A stretch of 62,682 nt of DNA from Patescibacteria group bacterium. Its GTDB lineage: Bacteria > Patescibacteriota > Saccharimonadia > Saccharimonadales > Saccharimonadaceae. Both the position numbers and the translations under genes were made by a program. The stretch covers positions 1 through 62,682 of the forward strand of contig SCSZ01000022.1 in assembly GCA_004322265.1 (NCBI GenBank). Direction: 5' to 3'. The notes below the pieces were generated by a model. It was not told where the DNA came from. It searched no databases and saw only the letters and a list, made by a program, of their open reading frames with translations. Positions 26,490 through 57,897 of this stretch are shown piece by piece. Position 1 is the first letter of the stretch, and each line of letters starts with the position of its first letter.

Positions 26490-26518
26490 TTGACAACAAT
26501 AACGGAGATTGCTATACT
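26490..26518 (+). promoter_or_regulatory. rplJL promoter (TTGACA, 17 bp, TATACT)
   Basis: A perfect -35 TTGACA (26490-26495) and -10 TATACT (26513-26518) are 17 bp apart. This is one of the best promoters in the window. It gives a leader of about 205 nt before rplJ, in contrast to the leaderless genes around. Confidence 0.85.
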
Positions 26519-26621
26519 TTATCTAGACATTACCAAAGACAGTAGCGGTGAATGAGTCAATCAAACACTTAATCAGCTACCCAGGATAATATGTATCATG
26601 TAAAACATACATTGTTCGATG

Positions 26622-26659
26622 AGTCTTTGGCAGTGCGAGGTCCAAAGACTTTTTCTTTT
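26622..26659 (+). terminator. Terminator-like attenuator in the rplJ leader
   Basis: AGTCTTTGG (26622-26630) and CCAAAGACT (26642-26650) form a perfect 9-bp stem with an 11-nt loop, followed by TTTTCTTTT. It lies between the rplJ promoter and the rplJ start, about 72 nt before the ATG, so it should reduce read-through unless prevented. L10 leaders are known sites for autoregulation; this one would work by transcription attenuation. Confidence 0.7.
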
Positions 26660-26730
26660 CCCCTTAAGCTGCCTGTGTCGGTACATTCACAATTTGGTCG
26701 AATGAACATTAAATCAAAGAAAGGATTTTT

Positions 26731-50579: not shown

Positions 50580-51488
50580 ATGAAAATCGTAATCTCAGGA
50601 CTTGGACGAATGGGTGGACAAATCGCTCAAAAATTAGCAGAAGGTGGCCACGAAGTAATCGCCAATAATCGTAGTCGTGATCCAATCGACGAGGCTGTAA
50701 CGCATGGTGCAGTTGCCGCCTACGAAAAAACCGACGTAGTTGCCGCATTTGATGGCCAGCCTGTTGTTCTGTGGATCATGATTCCTGCCGATGTGATTGA
50801 GAGTGAGCTCGACGCTTGGCTCGAAATCCTACCAACTGGCAGTATCATTATTGACGGTGGTAACAGCGATTATCGTGGCGACAAAGCTCGCGCCGATAAA
50901 GTGCACGCTACCGGTAGCGTTTTACTCGATATTGGCACCAGTGGTGGTGTATGGGGTTATGAAAATGGCTTTTCGATGATGGTTGGCGGCGACCAGACTG
51001 CCTATGAGGCTATTTCTAGCGCCCTAGACACGCTTTCGGCTCCTCGGGGTGGACATCAGCACTTCAGCACGAGTGGCAGTGGGCACTACGTCAAAATGGT
51101 TCACAACGCGATTGAATATGGCATGATGGAAAGTCTTGCTGAGGGCTATCGTATGCTTAAGGAAGGTCCATATAGCGACATCGATTTAGCCAAGGCCGGG
51201 GATATCTGGCAGCAAAGTAGCGTCGTAACCTCATGGCTCAATGATTTGACTCGTCAGGCCCTGCACGAAAATCCGACGCTCGATGGCATTGAGGGAGTTG
51301 TCGCAGAGTCAGGTGAGGCACGTTGGACGCTCGAAACAGCCAAAGAGCTTGGTATTCCACTGCCTGCTATCCAGACTTCATTTGATGTACGCCTCGCCTC
51401 ACAAAACGGTGAAATTAGCTTCGCAACCAAACTACTCGCTGCCATGCGTAACAAGTTCGGCGGACACAACATTGACGGCAAACAATAA
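50580..51488 (+). CDS. gnd: 6-phosphogluconate dehydrogenase, short (about 300 aa) type
   Basis: The 302-residue protein has the Rossmann start 'MKIVISGLGRMGGQIAQKLA', 'IIDGGNSDYRGDKARA', the substrate motif 'DIGTSGGVWGYENGFSMMVG' and catalytic Lys/Asn in 'GSGHYVKMVHNAIEYGMM'. It is the short form without the second half of the 470-residue enzymes; short forms often prefer NAD+. It yields ribulose-5-phosphate and CO2. Shine-Dalgarno AAGGAGG; coupled with pgl. Confidence 0.93.
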   Translation: MKIVISGLGRMGGQIAQKLAEGGHEVIANNRSRDPIDEAVTHGAVAAYEKTDVVAAFDGQPVVLWIMIPADVIESELDAWLEILPTGSIIIDGGNSDYRGDKARADKVHATGSVLLDIGTSGGVWGYENGFSMMVGGDQTAYEAISSALDTLSAPRGGHQHFSTSGSGHYVKMVHNAIEYGMMESLAEGYRMLKEGPYSDIDLAKAGDIWQQSSVVTSWLNDLTRQALHENPTLDGIEGVVAESGEARWTLETAKELGIPLPAIQTSFDVRLASQNGEISFATKLLAAMRNKFGGHNIDGKQ

Positions 51489-51785: not shown

Positions 51786-52037
51786 TTAGGCTGTAATGCT
51801 CAGTAGGGTCCAGTTGCCACCGCGGTTGTCGCTGCGAAGACGGAAGTTAGCACGGCCATCTGAAAGAGTCAGAATCTCAGCGATGCGGCCGCCGTGGCGT
51901 ACTAGGCAACGTAGGCCGGCGTCTAGAAAATCATAGGTTGCACCTTCGTATACCATACGGCGTGGGTAGGCTGCGAGGTCCTTTTTGAATCCCATTACTG
52001 GTACTATGACGAGTTCGTTTATTTCTGTTCGGTTCAT
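51786..52037 (-). CDS. Small conserved-looking protein, 83 aa
   Basis: The protein is not recognised. It has 'VIVPVMGFKKDLAAYPRRM', 'LDAGLRCLVRHGGRIAEIL' and 'ANFRLRSDNRGGNWTLL', which suggests a small beta-barrel with a basic face and a C-terminal strand. The ATG at 52037 is preferred because TTGGAGGA lies 8 bp upstream; an ATG at 52094 has no such site. TATATA and TACAAT elements lie upstream on the minus strand. GC content is higher than in the neighbouring gnd gene. Confidence 0.6.
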   Translation of the reverse strand: MNRTEINELVIVPVMGFKKDLAAYPRRMVYEGATYDFLDAGLRCLVRHGGRIAEILTLSDGRANFRLRSDNRGGNWTLLSITA

Positions 52038-52386
52038 TATCTGTATCCTCCAAGAGATTGTATTTTTATATAGGTAACGCAAAAATGCCGACACGAGGTA
52101 ATTGGTCGACGAACGGATTTAGGAGGAAGTGATTCAGAGAGGAAAACAAGCCGTTCTAATGTTTTCTGTTTACTGAATTACTGTTTGAGATTGTACGATC
52201 AACAGGGGCGCCTAGGAGCAAATGACTACTGGTGTGCATGCCGTCGCTAATTGTGAAGTAGAGTGACTTCTCGCATAAATCTGTGGGTAAAAAGGTGATG
52301 TTCACCAGTACCTACATGACTGTATTTAGTATACACCCAGGCAGGCAAATGATGTCAATACATAACCATCATAACTAGCCATAACC

Positions 52387-52415
52387 TTTACAAAAAGAGT
52401 TATTTATGGTAAAAT
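52387..52415 (+). promoter_or_regulatory. Promoter of the surface-protein gene (TTTACA, 17 bp, TAAAAT)
   Basis: TTTACA (52387-52392) and TAAAAT (52410-52415) are 17 bp apart. The start near 52422 gives a leader of about 128 nt, much longer than for native leaderless genes. Confidence 0.6.
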
Positions 52416-52436
52416 GAGGAGGTAAGTGCGATGCAC

Positions 52437-52464
52437 GTGGGAGCCAAGGGGCCCCTGGCTCCAC
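52437..52464 (+). promoter_or_regulatory. GC-rich hairpin in the leader of the surface-protein gene
   Basis: GGAGCCA (52440-52446) pairs with TGGCTCC (52456-52462), extended by outer GT/AC pairs and with a self-complementary GGGGCCCC loop. No U-tract follows, so it is more likely an mRNA-stability or regulatory structure than a terminator. Confidence 0.55.
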
Positions 52465-52549
52465 CTCGTACATTTTCACTCTCTACAACTCAGCTAGACA
52501 ATCCGTCTTTTTGAGAAATGCAATACAGCACAGAAAGAGGTGGTACCAG

Positions 52550-54550
52550 ATGGTACTGTCAATTGGGTCCGCGCGCAAGCGCGTACTAGCTGGGGTGGTG
52601 GCTCTCGTCTTCACGACGGGTGGCATCGGCCTAGCAGCGGGCGCGCCAGCGTTCGCAAGCAACATCGGCAACAGCAATGAGACTCCCTACTGGGAAGCTC
52701 AGTACCCCGGGACAGACTGCTTCAAGGACACCGGTGGTTCGATCGTCGGCAAGGACGTAGTCCTCACCGTCACGGACGCCGTCGTTCTCGTCGTCAACGG
52801 CGGAAGCAACGACCAGGTGTACCCGAACCCTGTCGCAGGACAGACCGGGTACGAAGCGCCGCTCAACAACGGGGGTCAGATCCCCGATGTGTCGCACTGG
52901 ATCTACTGCTCGCCGGTCACGCCGCCACCGCCAACACACGTCACGCCCGTCGCCCCTGTCTATACGCCGGGAACATGCGACGCGGTGGGCACGGTGGTCG
53001 CGACAGACACCACGCAGTACACCTGGGCAGCCAGTGGTACGACAGCAGCGACGTACGAAACGGCCTCGGCCGTGGGCAACGTCGTGCTCGATGGTCAGAC
53101 GGTCTACGGGCCGTACGATCTGAGCCAGCTGAGCGGTGATGCCTGTCCGGCACCGCCGACCGCCGTCAAGCCGGAGCCCCCGGTCCTCACGGTGGTCTGT
53201 GGCGCTAACAACGACACGGTCACAACTCCGGGAACCGAGTACAACAACGATCCCCAGGTCACGGAGACGGCCCAGTTCGTGTACGTCATCGACCCGCACG
53301 GAACGGACACGCCCGGAATCATCACGGTCGCTGCAACGCCGAAGGATGGCTTCACCGTCTCCCAGCCAGGGAGCGGTGACACGTACGTGATCGAGGACGC
53401 TGGAGACGCTCTCTGGACGTTCACGGACGCGAACACTGCCTGCCCCCCGCCGCCGCCCACCGCGATCGACTGTGTCGTCAACACGAGCATCCCGTGGAGC
53501 GCCGAACCAGGCGACCACAAGCCGGTCCAGGGCCCCAACGGCCTGGACTTCAAGGGAGCAAGTGTGGCCGCAATCGACTGGTACCTGCGAGTACTGTCTG
53601 GCAACGCACAGGGCATCACGTACCTGTCGGTGACCTACGCACCCGGCGGCACTGGGCAACCAGCCCAGGTCGTCGTGGAGGTTCTGGCGCCGTACTTCGT
53701 GACGCCGTCTGACCCCACCGGGTACGCGACGCTCAGCACGAACCTCGTGGCCCCGAGCGGCACGATCGATCTGCTGGCGCCGGGCATCGGCTGGTCGAGT
53801 ACGCACATCGCGAGTGGGCCCGGTTCGCTGGGTTCTCCCGAGTCCTACTCGGACCTCGTGAACCAGATCGGCGTGAACTCGCTGTTCTCGGCACCGTCGC
53901 TGCACCTGCTCACCAACAGCACGAGCGGGGATGTCAGCACGGTGGTGGCACTCAACTCGTCGTGCGGTAACAACGACTTCGTTCCCACGAAGCCGGCGGA
54001 CGACGTGAGCCACACGTCGACCACCACGGTGGACTGCACCAGCGACTCGCAGACCACGATCACCACGACGACGACCAAGCCGCAGGTCTGGGACGCCAGC
54101 GCAACTCCTCCGGGATACGCGACTGACACCAACCCCGCGGACTGGACGGTGACGGACGATTCGCCCGGTGTGACGGTGGCTCTGACGAGCGACCAGATCG
54201 CCGAGAGCTGCCCGGACAACGTGATCACCCCGACAGGACCCAGCTACACCGAGTCCTGCCAGGTCACGGGTGCGAACACGACCGACGCAGTCACCACGGG
54301 AATCACCTACGCCGACGTCCTCGTCGGTAACACGGTGACCACCACGGCGACGGCAGTTGCACCGTACGTCATCAAGTTCGGGGCACAGTCGGTCTGGGTT
54401 CACACCTTCACGGGCGGGAACGCGTCGGGCTGCTACCCGAAGGCTCTGGCTCTCACGGGCTCGAACTGGCCGTGGTACGCCTTCTTCGGTGCTGTGCTCA
54501 TGCTGGTGTTCGGGATTCGGATGGCCCGTCGCCACCACCTGAACACGTAG
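52550..54550 (+). CDS. Secreted, LALTG-anchored cell-surface protein of actinobacterial style
   Basis: The 666-residue protein starts with a signal peptide ('KRVLAGVVALVFTTGGIGLA' then 'APAFAS'), has several repeated beta domains that each end in a Trp-Thr-Phe-Thr-Asp plus Cys pattern ('LWTFTDANTACP'), Pro/Thr-rich spacers, and ends in 'LALTGSNWPWYAFFGAVLML' plus 'ARRHH', a sortase signal near residue 633. GC content and G/C-ending codons are much higher than anywhere around. Domains, anchor and codon use all resemble Actinobacteria. The start at 52550 has AGAGG upstream; a TTG at 52511 is less likely. Confidence 0.8.
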   Translation: MVLSIGSARKRVLAGVVALVFTTGGIGLAAGAPAFASNIGNSNETPYWEAQYPGTDCFKDTGGSIVGKDVVLTVTDAVVLVVNGGSNDQVYPNPVAGQTGYEAPLNNGGQIPDVSHWIYCSPVTPPPPTHVTPVAPVYTPGTCDAVGTVVATDTTQYTWAASGTTAATYETASAVGNVVLDGQTVYGPYDLSQLSGDACPAPPTAVKPEPPVLTVVCGANNDTVTTPGTEYNNDPQVTETAQFVYVIDPHGTDTPGIITVAATPKDGFTVSQPGSGDTYVIEDAGDALWTFTDANTACPPPPPTAIDCVVNTSIPWSAEPGDHKPVQGPNGLDFKGASVAAIDWYLRVLSGNAQGITYLSVTYAPGGTGQPAQVVVEVLAPYFVTPSDPTGYATLSTNLVAPSGTIDLLAPGIGWSSTHIASGPGSLGSPESYSDLVNQIGVNSLFSAPSLHLLTNSTSGDVSTVVALNSSCGNNDFVPTKPADDVSHTSTTTVDCTSDSQTTITTTTTKPQVWDASATPPGYATDTNPADWTVTDDSPGVTVALTSDQIAESCPDNVITPTGPSYTESCQVTGANTTDAVTTGITYADVLVGNTVTTTATAVAPYVIKFGAQSVWVHTFTGGNASGCYPKALALTGSNWPWYAFFGAVLMLVFGIRMARRHHLNT

Positions 54551-54616
54551 TGAGTAAGTGGTAAGACCTCGGTCAAACCACACCAAATCGCCGCTGGACG
54601 CCTCCAGCAAACCGCG

Positions 54617-54645
54617 CCCTGTCGATCATCGCCGTTGATCCAGGG
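54617..54645 (+). other. Hairpin downstream of the surface-protein gene
   Basis: CCCTG-TC-GATCA (54617-54628) and TGATC-CAGGG (54636-54645) can form a stem of ten pairs with a 2-nt bulge. It may be a 3' stabiliser ahead of the terminator 35 bp further on. Confidence 0.4.
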
Positions 54646-54679
54646 AAAAGAGGTTCTCTCTTAGGAGATAGAGAATCTA

Positions 54680-54704
54680 GGGCTCCGTCAAATCGACGGA
54701 GCCC
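54680..54704. terminator. Strong terminator between the surface gene and carB
   Basis: GGGCTCCGTC-AAATC-GACGGAGCCC is a perfect 10-bp stem followed by TTCTC on the plus strand. It ends the surface-protein transcript and, read on the other strand, the convergent carAB transcript. Confidence 0.8.
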
Positions 54705-54729: not shown

Positions 54730-57700
54730 TTACCTAGGAACGTATTCTTGCCAGTATTTTGGCTGTACGTCCTTAAGCGCTGGGTCAGTGAGGCATCGTA
54801 GGAGCAATCGTCCCGTCTCAGGATTTGTCATCAGAGGCAAGTGATTATCGATCGCCAGACGACGAATAGTCGCACCATCGGTTGATATGTCCTGTGGCGT
54901 TGGAATATTAATCACAAGATCGAACTTTTTATCTAGGAGTGCCGAATGGACTGACGGCTCCTTGTGATCCGATATTTTGTAGAGTTTGGTCGTCTTAACA
55001 TCATGAGTCCTGAGGTAATCATGCGTCCCCTCGGTCGTGTAAATAGTCCAGCCATCAGCGACCAGTAGCGCTGCTTCCTCGACAAACTTGTGCTTTTGCT
55101 CGGTTGGTAGGCTGAGGAATAGGCGTTTACCGCCAATCTTTTGGTCAGTCGCGAGCCATGATGCGTAGAAGGCTTCCTCTAGATCGTCGCCAAAACAAGC
55201 AACTTCACCGGTCGAGGCCATCTCAACACCAGCGACTGGGTCGGCACCCTTCAGGCGGTTATACGAGAATTGAGGGTTCTTGACTCCAACATGATCGAGT
55301 TCGAGCGTTTGATAAACATTGTCGTTCTTGATACCGAGCATTGCATCCGTTGCGATGGCGATGAAGTTATGACCTGAGACCTTTGATACGAATGGAAATG
55401 AGCGAGAGGCGCGAACATTTGTCTCGATGACCTTTAGCTCGTTATCCTTAGCCAAAAACTGAATATTGAATGGTCCAGTGATATCGAGGTTCTTCACCAC
55501 AGCCTTGGCAATATTCTTGGCCTGACGAACAGTCTCAAGATATAGCTTCTGAGCAGGGTAGACAACCGTTGCATCCCCTGAGTGGACACCGGCATTTTCG
55601 ATGTGTTCAGAGATCGCGTAAATAACTAGCTTACCGTTCTGGGCGACTCCATCAATCTCAAGTTCCTTAGCGTTCAATATAAACCGAGAGATAACAACTG
55701 GATGATCAGGGGATAATTTAGCTGCCTCACCGAGGTACGTCTCGAGCTCTTTTTCGTCCTGGACAACATTCATCGCGCCACCGGATAGGACGTACGAAGG
55801 CCGAATCAGAAGTGGATAGCCAACCTCGAGACCAAATTTCTTGGCAGCCTTCAGGGTTGTAACCTCGGACCATTCGGGCTGATCAATACCTAAGCGATTA
55901 AGCATAGCAGAGAACTTTTGGCGGTCTTCGGCGTTATCAATCTGCTCAGCGATCGTACCTAGGATTTTATATTTTGCCTGCGACAGAGGAAGAGCAAGAT
56001 TATTGGCGATCTGTCCACCAACCGAGACCACAATACCGTGCGGTTGCTCGAAGTCAGCAATATCCTGAATTCGCTCGAGTGTTAATTCGTCGAAGTATAG
56101 ACGATCAGAACGGTCGAAATCAGTCGAGACAGTCTCTGGATTAGAGTTGATCATAATCGTTTTGTAGCCACGTTTAGACAGTGTCTTGGCAGTATTAACA
56201 GCCGACCAGTCAAACTCAACTGATGAGCCGATACAGTACGGTCCTGATCCGATGATTGCGATAGCCTTTTTACCAAGTGGCTTGATGTCATTCACGTTGC
56301 CATGGTAGGTAACATAGAGGTAGTTCGTCTCGGCATCAAACTCACCAGCAAGCGTATCAATTTGCTTGACCACCGGGACAATTCCCATTTTTATGCGAGT
56401 TTTACGGACGAGTTGCTCGGTCGTATCAATCAATTTAGCGATTGTTTTGTCCGAAAAACCTTTTTGCTTGGCGTTATAGAGTAGGTTCTGTTTCAAAGGT
56501 TCGGCTTGAAGTTGTTTTTTCGTCGCCTCGATCTCCGCAAGGTGTTTGAGGAACCATGGATCGATATATGATTGCTTATGAATCTCCTCAACACTCGCGC
56601 CCCTTGCCAGGACATCGGCAATCGCGAATAATCGTCGTTCGGTTGGGTATTTAATCTCATCCATCGGGTTATCTATTTCAAATGGGTGATCGGTAAAGCC
56701 ATTGGCGCCGATATTGAGAGACCTAATTGCTTTTTGAAGTGCCTCAGGAAATGATCGTCCAAGAGCCATGACTTCACCGACACTCTTCATTTCTGACCCG
56801 ATGTGGTGATCACTCGCCTTAAGTTTTGAGAGGTCCCAACGCGGCATTTTAACAGCAATATAGTCGAGCGCTGGCTCAAAGAAGGCAGTTGTCGTACCTG
56901 TTACGGCGTTCTTGATTTCGTGTAGACGTTTACCGAGCATTAACTTAGATGCAACAAAGGCGAGGGGATAGCCAGTCGCCTTAGACGCGAGTGCGCTGGA
57001 TCGAGACAGGCGCGCATTAACCTCGATCACACGGTAATCACCATCGGCTGGGTTAAGTGCGTACTGAATGTTACATTCGCCAATAATGCCTAAGTGATTA
57101 ATTGTCTTGATCGCCACTTCGCGCAGGCGATGATATTCTTCGTTAGTGAGAGTCTGGGATGGCGCAACCACGATGCTTTCACCAGTGTGAACACCCATTG
57201 GGTCAAAGTTTTCCATATTACAGACGGTGATTGTGTTGCCGTCGATATCACGAACGACCTCATATTCTACTTCTTTCCAGCCCGTCAGATATTCTTCAAT
57301 TAATACCTGTGAGACATTATTGAAAACTTCGCTGAGTTTACTTTTGAGGTCTTTTTCATTTGTAACCAGACCTGAGCCGAGCCCACCAAGGCTATAACCA
57401 GAGCGCATCATGATAGGATAGCCGATAGTTCGAGCCGCAACGAGAGCTTCCTTAACACTGTAGGTGGCGAGGCTACGAGCGGTGTGAACACCGATTTCAG
57501 CTAATTTATTCTTAAAGATGTCGCGGTCTTCGGTGGCCTTGATAGTCGAAACTGGCGTGCCAAGTACTTGAATACCTAGGCGTTTAAATACGCCAGCGTC
57601 ATGCAAATCAAGGCCGAGATTAAGGGCTGTTTGGCCACCAAAACTGAGTGCTACGGCATCTGGTTTTTCGCGCTCTAAGATTTTTGTGACGGTTTCTATA

Positions 57701-57897
57701 TTCAGGGGCTGGAAGTAGACACGGTCAGCCATGTCATCATCGGTTTGGACGGTTGCGATGTTCGGGTTGATCAGAACTGTAAAGATTTTCTCTTGTTTGA
57801 ATGATTTAATTGCCTGTGAGCCAGAGTAATCAAACTCACCGGCCTGGCCGATACGAAGCCCGCCCGAGCCCAAGATTACTACTTTTTTGATGTTCAT
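54730..57897 (-). CDS. carB: Carbamoyl-phosphate synthase large subunit
   Basis: The 1055-residue protein has both ATP-grasp halves: the first begins 'VVILGSGGLRIGQAGEFDYS', the second near residue 535 with 'AIAIIGSGPYCIGSSVEFDW'. Each half has the grasp loop ('IMMRSGYSLGGLGSGLV', 'LLIRPSYVLSGGAMNVV') and a C-terminal MGS-like allosteric domain. It makes carbamoyl phosphate from bicarbonate, 2 ATP and ammonia from CarA. Its ATG overlaps the carA stop (ATGA). The canonical N-terminal DIKK-type opening is retained ('MNIKKVVILG'). Confidence 0.97.
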   Translation of the reverse strand: MNIKKVVILGSGGLRIGQAGEFDYSGSQAIKSFKQEKIFTVLINPNIATVQTDDDMADRVYFQPLNIETVTKILEREKPDAVALSFGGQTALNLGLDLHDAGVFKRLGIQVLGTPVSTIKATEDRDIFKNKLAEIGVHTARSLATYSVKEALVAARTIGYPIMMRSGYSLGGLGSGLVTNEKDLKSKLSEVFNNVSQVLIEEYLTGWKEVEYEVVRDIDGNTITVCNMENFDPMGVHTGESIVVAPSQTLTNEEYHRLREVAIKTINHLGIIGECNIQYALNPADGDYRVIEVNARLSRSSALASKATGYPLAFVASKLMLGKRLHEIKNAVTGTTTAFFEPALDYIAVKMPRWDLSKLKASDHHIGSEMKSVGEVMALGRSFPEALQKAIRSLNIGANGFTDHPFEIDNPMDEIKYPTERRLFAIADVLARGASVEEIHKQSYIDPWFLKHLAEIEATKKQLQAEPLKQNLLYNAKQKGFSDKTIAKLIDTTEQLVRKTRIKMGIVPVVKQIDTLAGEFDAETNYLYVTYHGNVNDIKPLGKKAIAIIGSGPYCIGSSVEFDWSAVNTAKTLSKRGYKTIMINSNPETVSTDFDRSDRLYFDELTLERIQDIADFEQPHGIVVSVGGQIANNLALPLSQAKYKILGTIAEQIDNAEDRQKFSAMLNRLGIDQPEWSEVTTLKAAKKFGLEVGYPLLIRPSYVLSGGAMNVVQDEKELETYLGEAAKLSPDHPVVISRFILNAKELEIDGVAQNGKLVIYAISEHIENAGVHSGDATVVYPAQKLYLETVRQAKNIAKAVVKNLDITGPFNIQFLAKDNELKVIETNVRASRSFPFVSKVSGHNFIAIATDAMLGIKNDNVYQTLELDHVGVKNPQFSYNRLKGADPVAGVEMASTGEVACFGDDLEEAFYASWLATDQKIGGKRLFLSLPTEQKHKFVEEAALLVADGWTIYTTEGTHDYLRTHDVKTTKLYKISDHKEPSVHSALLDKKFDLVINIPTPQDISTDGATIRRLAIDNHLPLMTNPETGRLLLRCLTDPALKDVQPKYWQEYVPR

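Follow-up and report, generated by a model that had tools for sequence, protein, structure and literature searches.

The window analysed in this study, a stretch of 62,682 nucleotides, corresponds to contig C38 of a draft Saccharibacterial genome of 886,541 bases. Towards its end lie, in this order, gnd, a small ORF of 83 amino acids on the reverse strand, a gene for a predicted surface protein, and carB, which converges with the surface gene (Table 1). The surface gene is a single ORF that runs from an ATG at 52550 to a stop codon ending at 54550 and is preceded by the ribosome-binding site AAAGAGGTGG. A preliminary description made from the letters of the DNA alone had placed a GC-rich ORF with G/C-ending codons here, and both its coordinates and this base composition proved correct. 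GC is 0.64–0.66 across 52501–54500 as against 0.40–0.50 in most of the window, and the three codon positions of the gene have GC contents of 0.587, 0.545 and 0.821. Its GC3 ranks first among 170 ORFs of at least 150 amino acids sampled from the window and 16 further stretches of the genome, a ranking that covers this sample; the sample mean is about 0.41, which counts a few masked stretches as zero, and the next two values are 0.758 and 0.513. The gene with a GC3 of 0.758 (L062:9907-10440, on contig C23 of the same genome) is an orphan ORF for a basic product of 177 amino acids and is flanked by low-GC genes. Other secreted proteins of the genome have GC3 values of 0.35–0.51, so that high GC is not simply a property of surface proteins. 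Amino-acid composition was rejected as the source of the high GC because the effect sits in the third positions and is absent from the genome's other secreted proteins.

Table 1. Features at the surface-protein locus, in positions of the window
Feature	Position	Strand	Basis
gnd	50580-51488	+	
83-aa ORF (the small ORF)	51786-52037	-	Identical in G010; 52-87% in further genomes and genera
Candidate structured RNA	52076-52333	-	
Sigma70-like promoter of surface gene, TTTACA-N17-TAAAAT (native)	52387-52415	+	Read; conserved in G010, largely in G015
Leader hairpin GTGGGAGCCAAGGGG/CCCCTGGCTCCAC (native)	52437-52464	+	Read; near-identical in G010 despite its different gene body
387-bp block (RBS to about codon 122) common to G015 (UBA6039)	52532-52917	+	blastn, 89.7% DNA identity; pS 0.21
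GC-rich sortase-type surface protein, 666 aa	52550-54550	+	ORF; GC3 0.82; single copy in own genome
Signal peptide, predicted cleavage between APAFA and SN	52550-52657	+	Read from translation
Domain 1 (YWE...DVSHWIYC), actinobacterial family	52661-52915	+	Homology searches, alignment, tree
Domain 2, common to G617 (other genus) and actinobacterium G462	52952-53167	+	blastp
Domain 3 (ends WTFTDANTAC), common to G001	53168-53455	+	38% over 112 aa
Domain 4, part common to G010 (SGNAQG region); end approximate	53465-54010	+	38.6% over 57 aa, E ~1e-4
LALTG motif (54446-54460), transmembrane helix, basic tail	54446-54547	+	Read directly
Native 3' untranslated region	54551-54679	+	Alignment; G010 homology resumes at stop codon
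Terminator hairpin GGGCTCCGTC-AAATC-GACGGAGCCC (native), between convergent surface gene and carB	54680-54704	+	Read; alignment
carB	54730-57897	-	

Read by eye, the product consists of a signal peptide with a basic start and a hydrophobic core, several Cys-bounded beta-rich modules, and a C-terminal tail, LALTG-SNWPWYAFFGAVLMLVFGIRM-ARRHH, in which the motif is followed by a hydrophobic stretch and a basic end. The NCBIfam anchor models score this tail at 13 against a cut-off of 27 and at 11.5 against a cut-off of 15.9, so that the predicted sorting signal rests on anatomy. The cleavable signal and the LALTG tail with a basic end described previously are thus both seen as predicted features, while of the repeats said to end in W-T-F-T-D-x-x-x-A-C, LWTFTDANTAC is the single clear copy, and VWVHTFTGGNASGC, another Trp-rich end, only resembles it. 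Neither Pfam nor PHROGs returned a family for the protein. Two weak sequence matches in the PDB to influenza haemagglutinin (E 0.04) were judged to be due to chance, and a structure prediction for domain 1, made with three sequences, was of poor quality (pLDDT 50). The genome has six Pfam Sortase matches over cut-off, none of them adjoining the surface gene; these six sortase-like proteins score best with class C, class F or general models. A class E sortase (LAXTG type), for which the preliminary description proposed a search, was not found in the genome, where the best NCBIfam class E score is 51.4 against a cut-off of 160. A domain of the TICHRTDSVTNPY type is present in a low-GC, sortase-linked protein of the same genome (L009:2092-3351) and, at 61% identity, in a GC-rich gene of the Saccharibacterial genome G034 (L084:2803-5124), one module thus occurring in two base compositions.

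Between the small ORF and the surface gene lies a conserved minus-strand element. It begins at a -10-like TATACT, upstream of which lies TTGACA, and closes with a hairpin that has T residues behind it, an appearance that suggests a structured leader with a possible terminator. When 13 relatives were used to build a covariance model, the model detected the element in 63 of 195 genomes of the class, mostly as one copy per genome, and at all 20 loci inspected the element lies directly upstream of the same 83-aa ORF, for which Pfam, NCBIfam and PHROGs hold no family. Pair-keeping changes on both sides are seen in 28 of its 39 pairs, and none of 500 shuffles reached any of five measures; the alignment behind these counts was fitted to the model, and largely the same helices emerge when it is folded independently. 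Rfam searches of the window stretch at E values up to 10 returned no credible match for the element (two weak ones, to a CRISPR repeat and a human lncRNA, were far below their cut-offs), and none was found at the element in further relatives searched. We regard it as a candidate for a new structured RNA, about 250 nt long, that shows strong covariation and has its own promoter-like and terminator-like ends. The sole Rfam match at gathering threshold in the window is a ribosomal protein L10 leader (RF00557) at 26515-26665.

In the nearest relative that has the region, G010, the neighbouring genes and their order are unchanged, and the place of the surface gene is taken by a different GC-rich surface gene, which encodes a protein of 709 amino acids. 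DNA identity between the window and G010 is 87% from the small ORF to about position 52488, a stretch that includes the promoter, the leader hairpin and the initial portion of the leader; the homology ends 5' of the ribosome-binding site, returns at the stop codon and continues through the 3' untranslated region and the terminator. Since promoter, leader and terminator are conserved with a genome whose gene body differs, these elements are the recipient's. The gene had been described as a unit with its own promoter, leader hairpin and terminator; all three are present, but they are not part of what was acquired. On the alignment with G010, the foreign part is limited to the coding sequence, beginning shortly before the ribosome-binding site and ending with the stop codon.

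The beginning of this coding sequence has its closest counterpart in a more distant species, G015. The leader of the G015 gene differs from that of the window, and the 387-bp block that follows is common to both. Its synonymous difference of 0.21 compares with pS values of 0.72–0.83, that is saturation, in nine native gene pairs of the two genomes, and of 0.765 in the small ORF beside the surface gene, so that the block dates from long after the two lineages split. Protein identities place G010 nearer to the window's species (0.79–0.96 as compared with 0.29–0.86 for G015); together with the incongruence in pS, this indicates that the coding sequence and its flanks have different histories. Judged by synonymous divergence, these 387 bp were recently transferred between the two Saccharibacterial lineages, which are distant from each other, or both lineages received them from one source. 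The remainder of the coding sequence is, by its matches, a mosaic. Alignments by blastp that span domains 1 and 2 give 41.8% identity over 184 amino acids with G617 and 31% over 207 amino acids with G462, and the G001 protein that matches domain 3 comes from another contig, C92.

A GC-rich secreted protein encoded divergently from the small ORF was found at the same site in 14 genomes of two genera, namely in G000, G010, G015, G014, G004, G011 and G001 of the window's genus (g1) and in G034, G617, G551, G585, G606, G576 and G599 of genus g8. Their GC3 is 0.66–0.82 where it was computed individually. Any segment at all (E <1e-4) is shared by 15 of the 91 pairs of occupant proteins, in a comparison that takes one genome per species and includes several genes that are incomplete or partly masked. 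What these proteins have in common with the window protein are modules: domain 1 in G015, domains 1 and 2 in G617, domain 3 in G001 and part of domain 4 in G010. Many relatives carry the small ORF in other surroundings, and there it is without a GC-rich surface gene. In the genomes compared, the flanks follow the species and the coding sequence does not, and the occupants of the site in the two genera are GC-rich, predicted to be secreted and mostly unrelated to one another.

With regard to the origin of these coding sequences, domain 1 is present in 13 of 396 genomes of the order around Demequina and in 29 of 395 genomes of the class, as compared with only 6 of 344 genomes of the window's own Saccharibacterial family. 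The window's copy is 43% identical to that of Demequina (E 5e-13), and the Trp, Gly-Gly and SHxIxC positions are conserved. Maximum-likelihood analysis of 33 domains places the copy of G617 and the actinobacterial L070 as sisters (support 98/86), and trees that unite the Saccharibacterial copies are rejected by the AU test (p 0.017 for five copies, 0.034 for four). This tree is built on 110 columns, is unrooted, has many open forks and leaves open the nearest neighbour of the pair to which the window's copy belongs; the direction of transfer is consequently read from breadth of occurrence and composition. Likenesses to actinobacterial proteins are also seen in G014 at the same site (48% over 104 amino acids of its domain) and in G592 at a different site (40% over 291 amino acids). 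These comparisons give good support to the view that the family of the N-terminal domain has an actinobacterial distribution and that it came into Saccharibacteria on more than one occasion. The GC3 of the actinobacterial homologues is 0.89–0.93, above the 0.66–0.84 of the Saccharibacterial genes, which makes a direct recent transfer from a host unlikely. The most economical reading would be that such sequences entered repeatedly from actinobacteria and were then exchanged among Saccharibacteria, where they drifted in part to lower GC. Codon usage was considered as evidence for a donor and rejected, as native usage shifted toward G/C fits equally well as actinobacterial usage; in the comparison with actinobacteria that the preliminary description had suggested, codon choice beyond GC3 names no donor.

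Taken together, we consider it probable that the locus is a fixed expression site in which homologous recombination exchanges surface-protein coding sequences that trace back to actinobacteria, with the product displayed toward the host. The native promoter, leader hairpin, 3' untranslated region and terminator, located between gnd and the small ORF on one side and carB on the other, form the site, and what is replaced there is the coding sequence by itself, between a point shortly 5' of the ribosome-binding site and the stop codon, or parts of it. For such exchange, DNA may be taken up and then recombined at regions of homology, namely the conserved flanks and the shared modules. This is suggested by a comEC-family gene in the genome, by searches that found no mobile element at the site and by a transformable cultivated relative, Southlakia epibionticum, in which natural transformation depends on comEC and mutants have been made by recombination on flanking homology (PMC10633639). 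Once exported, the protein would be attached to the cell wall by a sortase of the genome and would presumably face the actinobacterial host as an adhesin or recognition protein; a swap would then change host fit. Display and host contact are proposed here because protein adhesins are among the envelope functions needed for epibiotic growth in S. epibionticum (PMC10633639) and because the known hosts of Saccharimonadales are Actinobacteriota (PMC12592800). Adhesion, mimicry, protection against phage or host, and receptor masking are putative roles that would all look alike at the level of sequence.

The preliminary description had proposed that one gene with its own promoter and terminator was taken directly from an actinobacterial host. 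The high GC and GC3 and the homologous N-terminal domain in Demequina and other Actinomycetes are in agreement with this, and part of the proposal stands: the synonymous incongruence argues for horizontal acquisition, the domain 1 family extends across Actinomycetes, and the Saccharibacterial copies do not form one clade. However, the control elements are native, the best actinobacterial match found is only about 41% identical, and it is in Saccharibacteria, at the same site and with equally high GC, that the closest relatives are found. As worded, the proposal is largely refuted and direct acquisition from the host is distinctly unlikely. Nearest homologues of equally high GC within Saccharibacteria, or an assembly break at the junctions, had been named as what would speak against the proposal; the former were found and the latter was not, since both junctions align to G010, a genome of two contigs with the same layout. 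An assembly artefact or contamination with host DNA could be suspected in a metagenome-assembled draft of 38 contigs with an estimated contamination of 2.8%, yet the layout is repeated in further genomes; several independent assemblies with the same arrangement make misassembly very unlikely, and we give this explanation next to no weight.

The recurrence of the same site, similar GC and the same general architecture across two genera could alternatively reflect vertical inheritance of an old and very fast-evolving surface gene, the GC of which is kept high by selection or biased gene conversion. This is unlikely given that a block with a pS far below that of native genes is found in a distant species and is absent from the nearest one, that the occupants mostly have no detectable homology, and that monophyly of the Saccharibacterial copies of domain 1 is rejected. 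A mobile element or phage that carries or delivered the gene, for instance as an integrase-mediated cassette, would account for occupants that differ between species at one site. We regard it as highly improbable, because the protein has no match in plasmid or phage collections (tblastn) or in PHROGs, there are no flanking repeats at the site and no tRNA in the window, and no integrase-like ORF was recognised by eye beside the gene.

How Saccharibacteria recognise and switch their actinobacterial hosts is an open question. A fixed expression site with exchanged coding sequences may tune host attachment, and it offers a named gene for host range as well as a way of reading likely past donors from the genome sequence alone. 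A bolder and rather doubtful extension would be that Saccharibacteria repeatedly take host-derived surface coding sequences or modules into a dedicated site and trade them across species by natural transformation, such that the occupant sets which host can be bound. Our searches of the open-access literature returned no report of the present site or of surface-protein coding-sequence swapping in Saccharibacteria; the transfer of genes between Patescibacteria and other bacteria has been reported in general terms.

Compared with LPXTG/LAXTG sortase-anchored surface proteins, the window protein has the same signal peptide, C-terminal LALTG, hydrophobic stretch and basic tail, in a genome that encodes sortases, and it differs in scoring below the anchor-model cut-offs in a genome with no class E sortase by the NCBIfam cut-off. 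A related high-GC surface gene with a neighbouring sortase is found in G015 (with a domain 1 that is 85% identical), in G034 and in G592. At these loci, two at the same site and the one in G592 elsewhere, a sortase-like gene with a raised GC3 of 0.57–0.66 lies directly 3' of the surface gene (L013:11354-12232, L084:2085-2831 and L108:5099-5872, respectively), whereas the window is without one. The sortase-like proteins of G015 and G034 diverge from known sortase classes.

The multidomain surface proteins of the Demequina type (for example that of Demequina sp. NBRC 110057, L005) have in common with the window protein the signal peptide, the Cys-bounded YWE...HWIxC domain and further Cys-bounded beta-rich modules. 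They differ in that they are often longer (up to 1396 amino acids), have a GC3 of about 0.9 and lie in an actinobacterial gene neighbourhood, and several of them, unlike the window protein, end in -YTG-COOH without a membrane anchor. The actinobacterial relatives at L005:9100-9176, L079:5059, L080:4912 and L081:3352 (also L072 and L076) end exactly in (T/S)YTG or YAG, and in the four checked no downstream frame encodes a membrane helix or basic tail; this ending could possibly be an unrecognised C-terminal signal.

In polymorphic surface-protein loci, cassettes are swapped by recombination. The present site resembles such loci in its conserved flanks, its variable centre and the modules common to otherwise unrelated variants. 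It differs from them in that no silent cassette copies were detected in its own genome, and in that the exchange would cross species and involve domains of actinobacterial type in a host-dependent epibiont.
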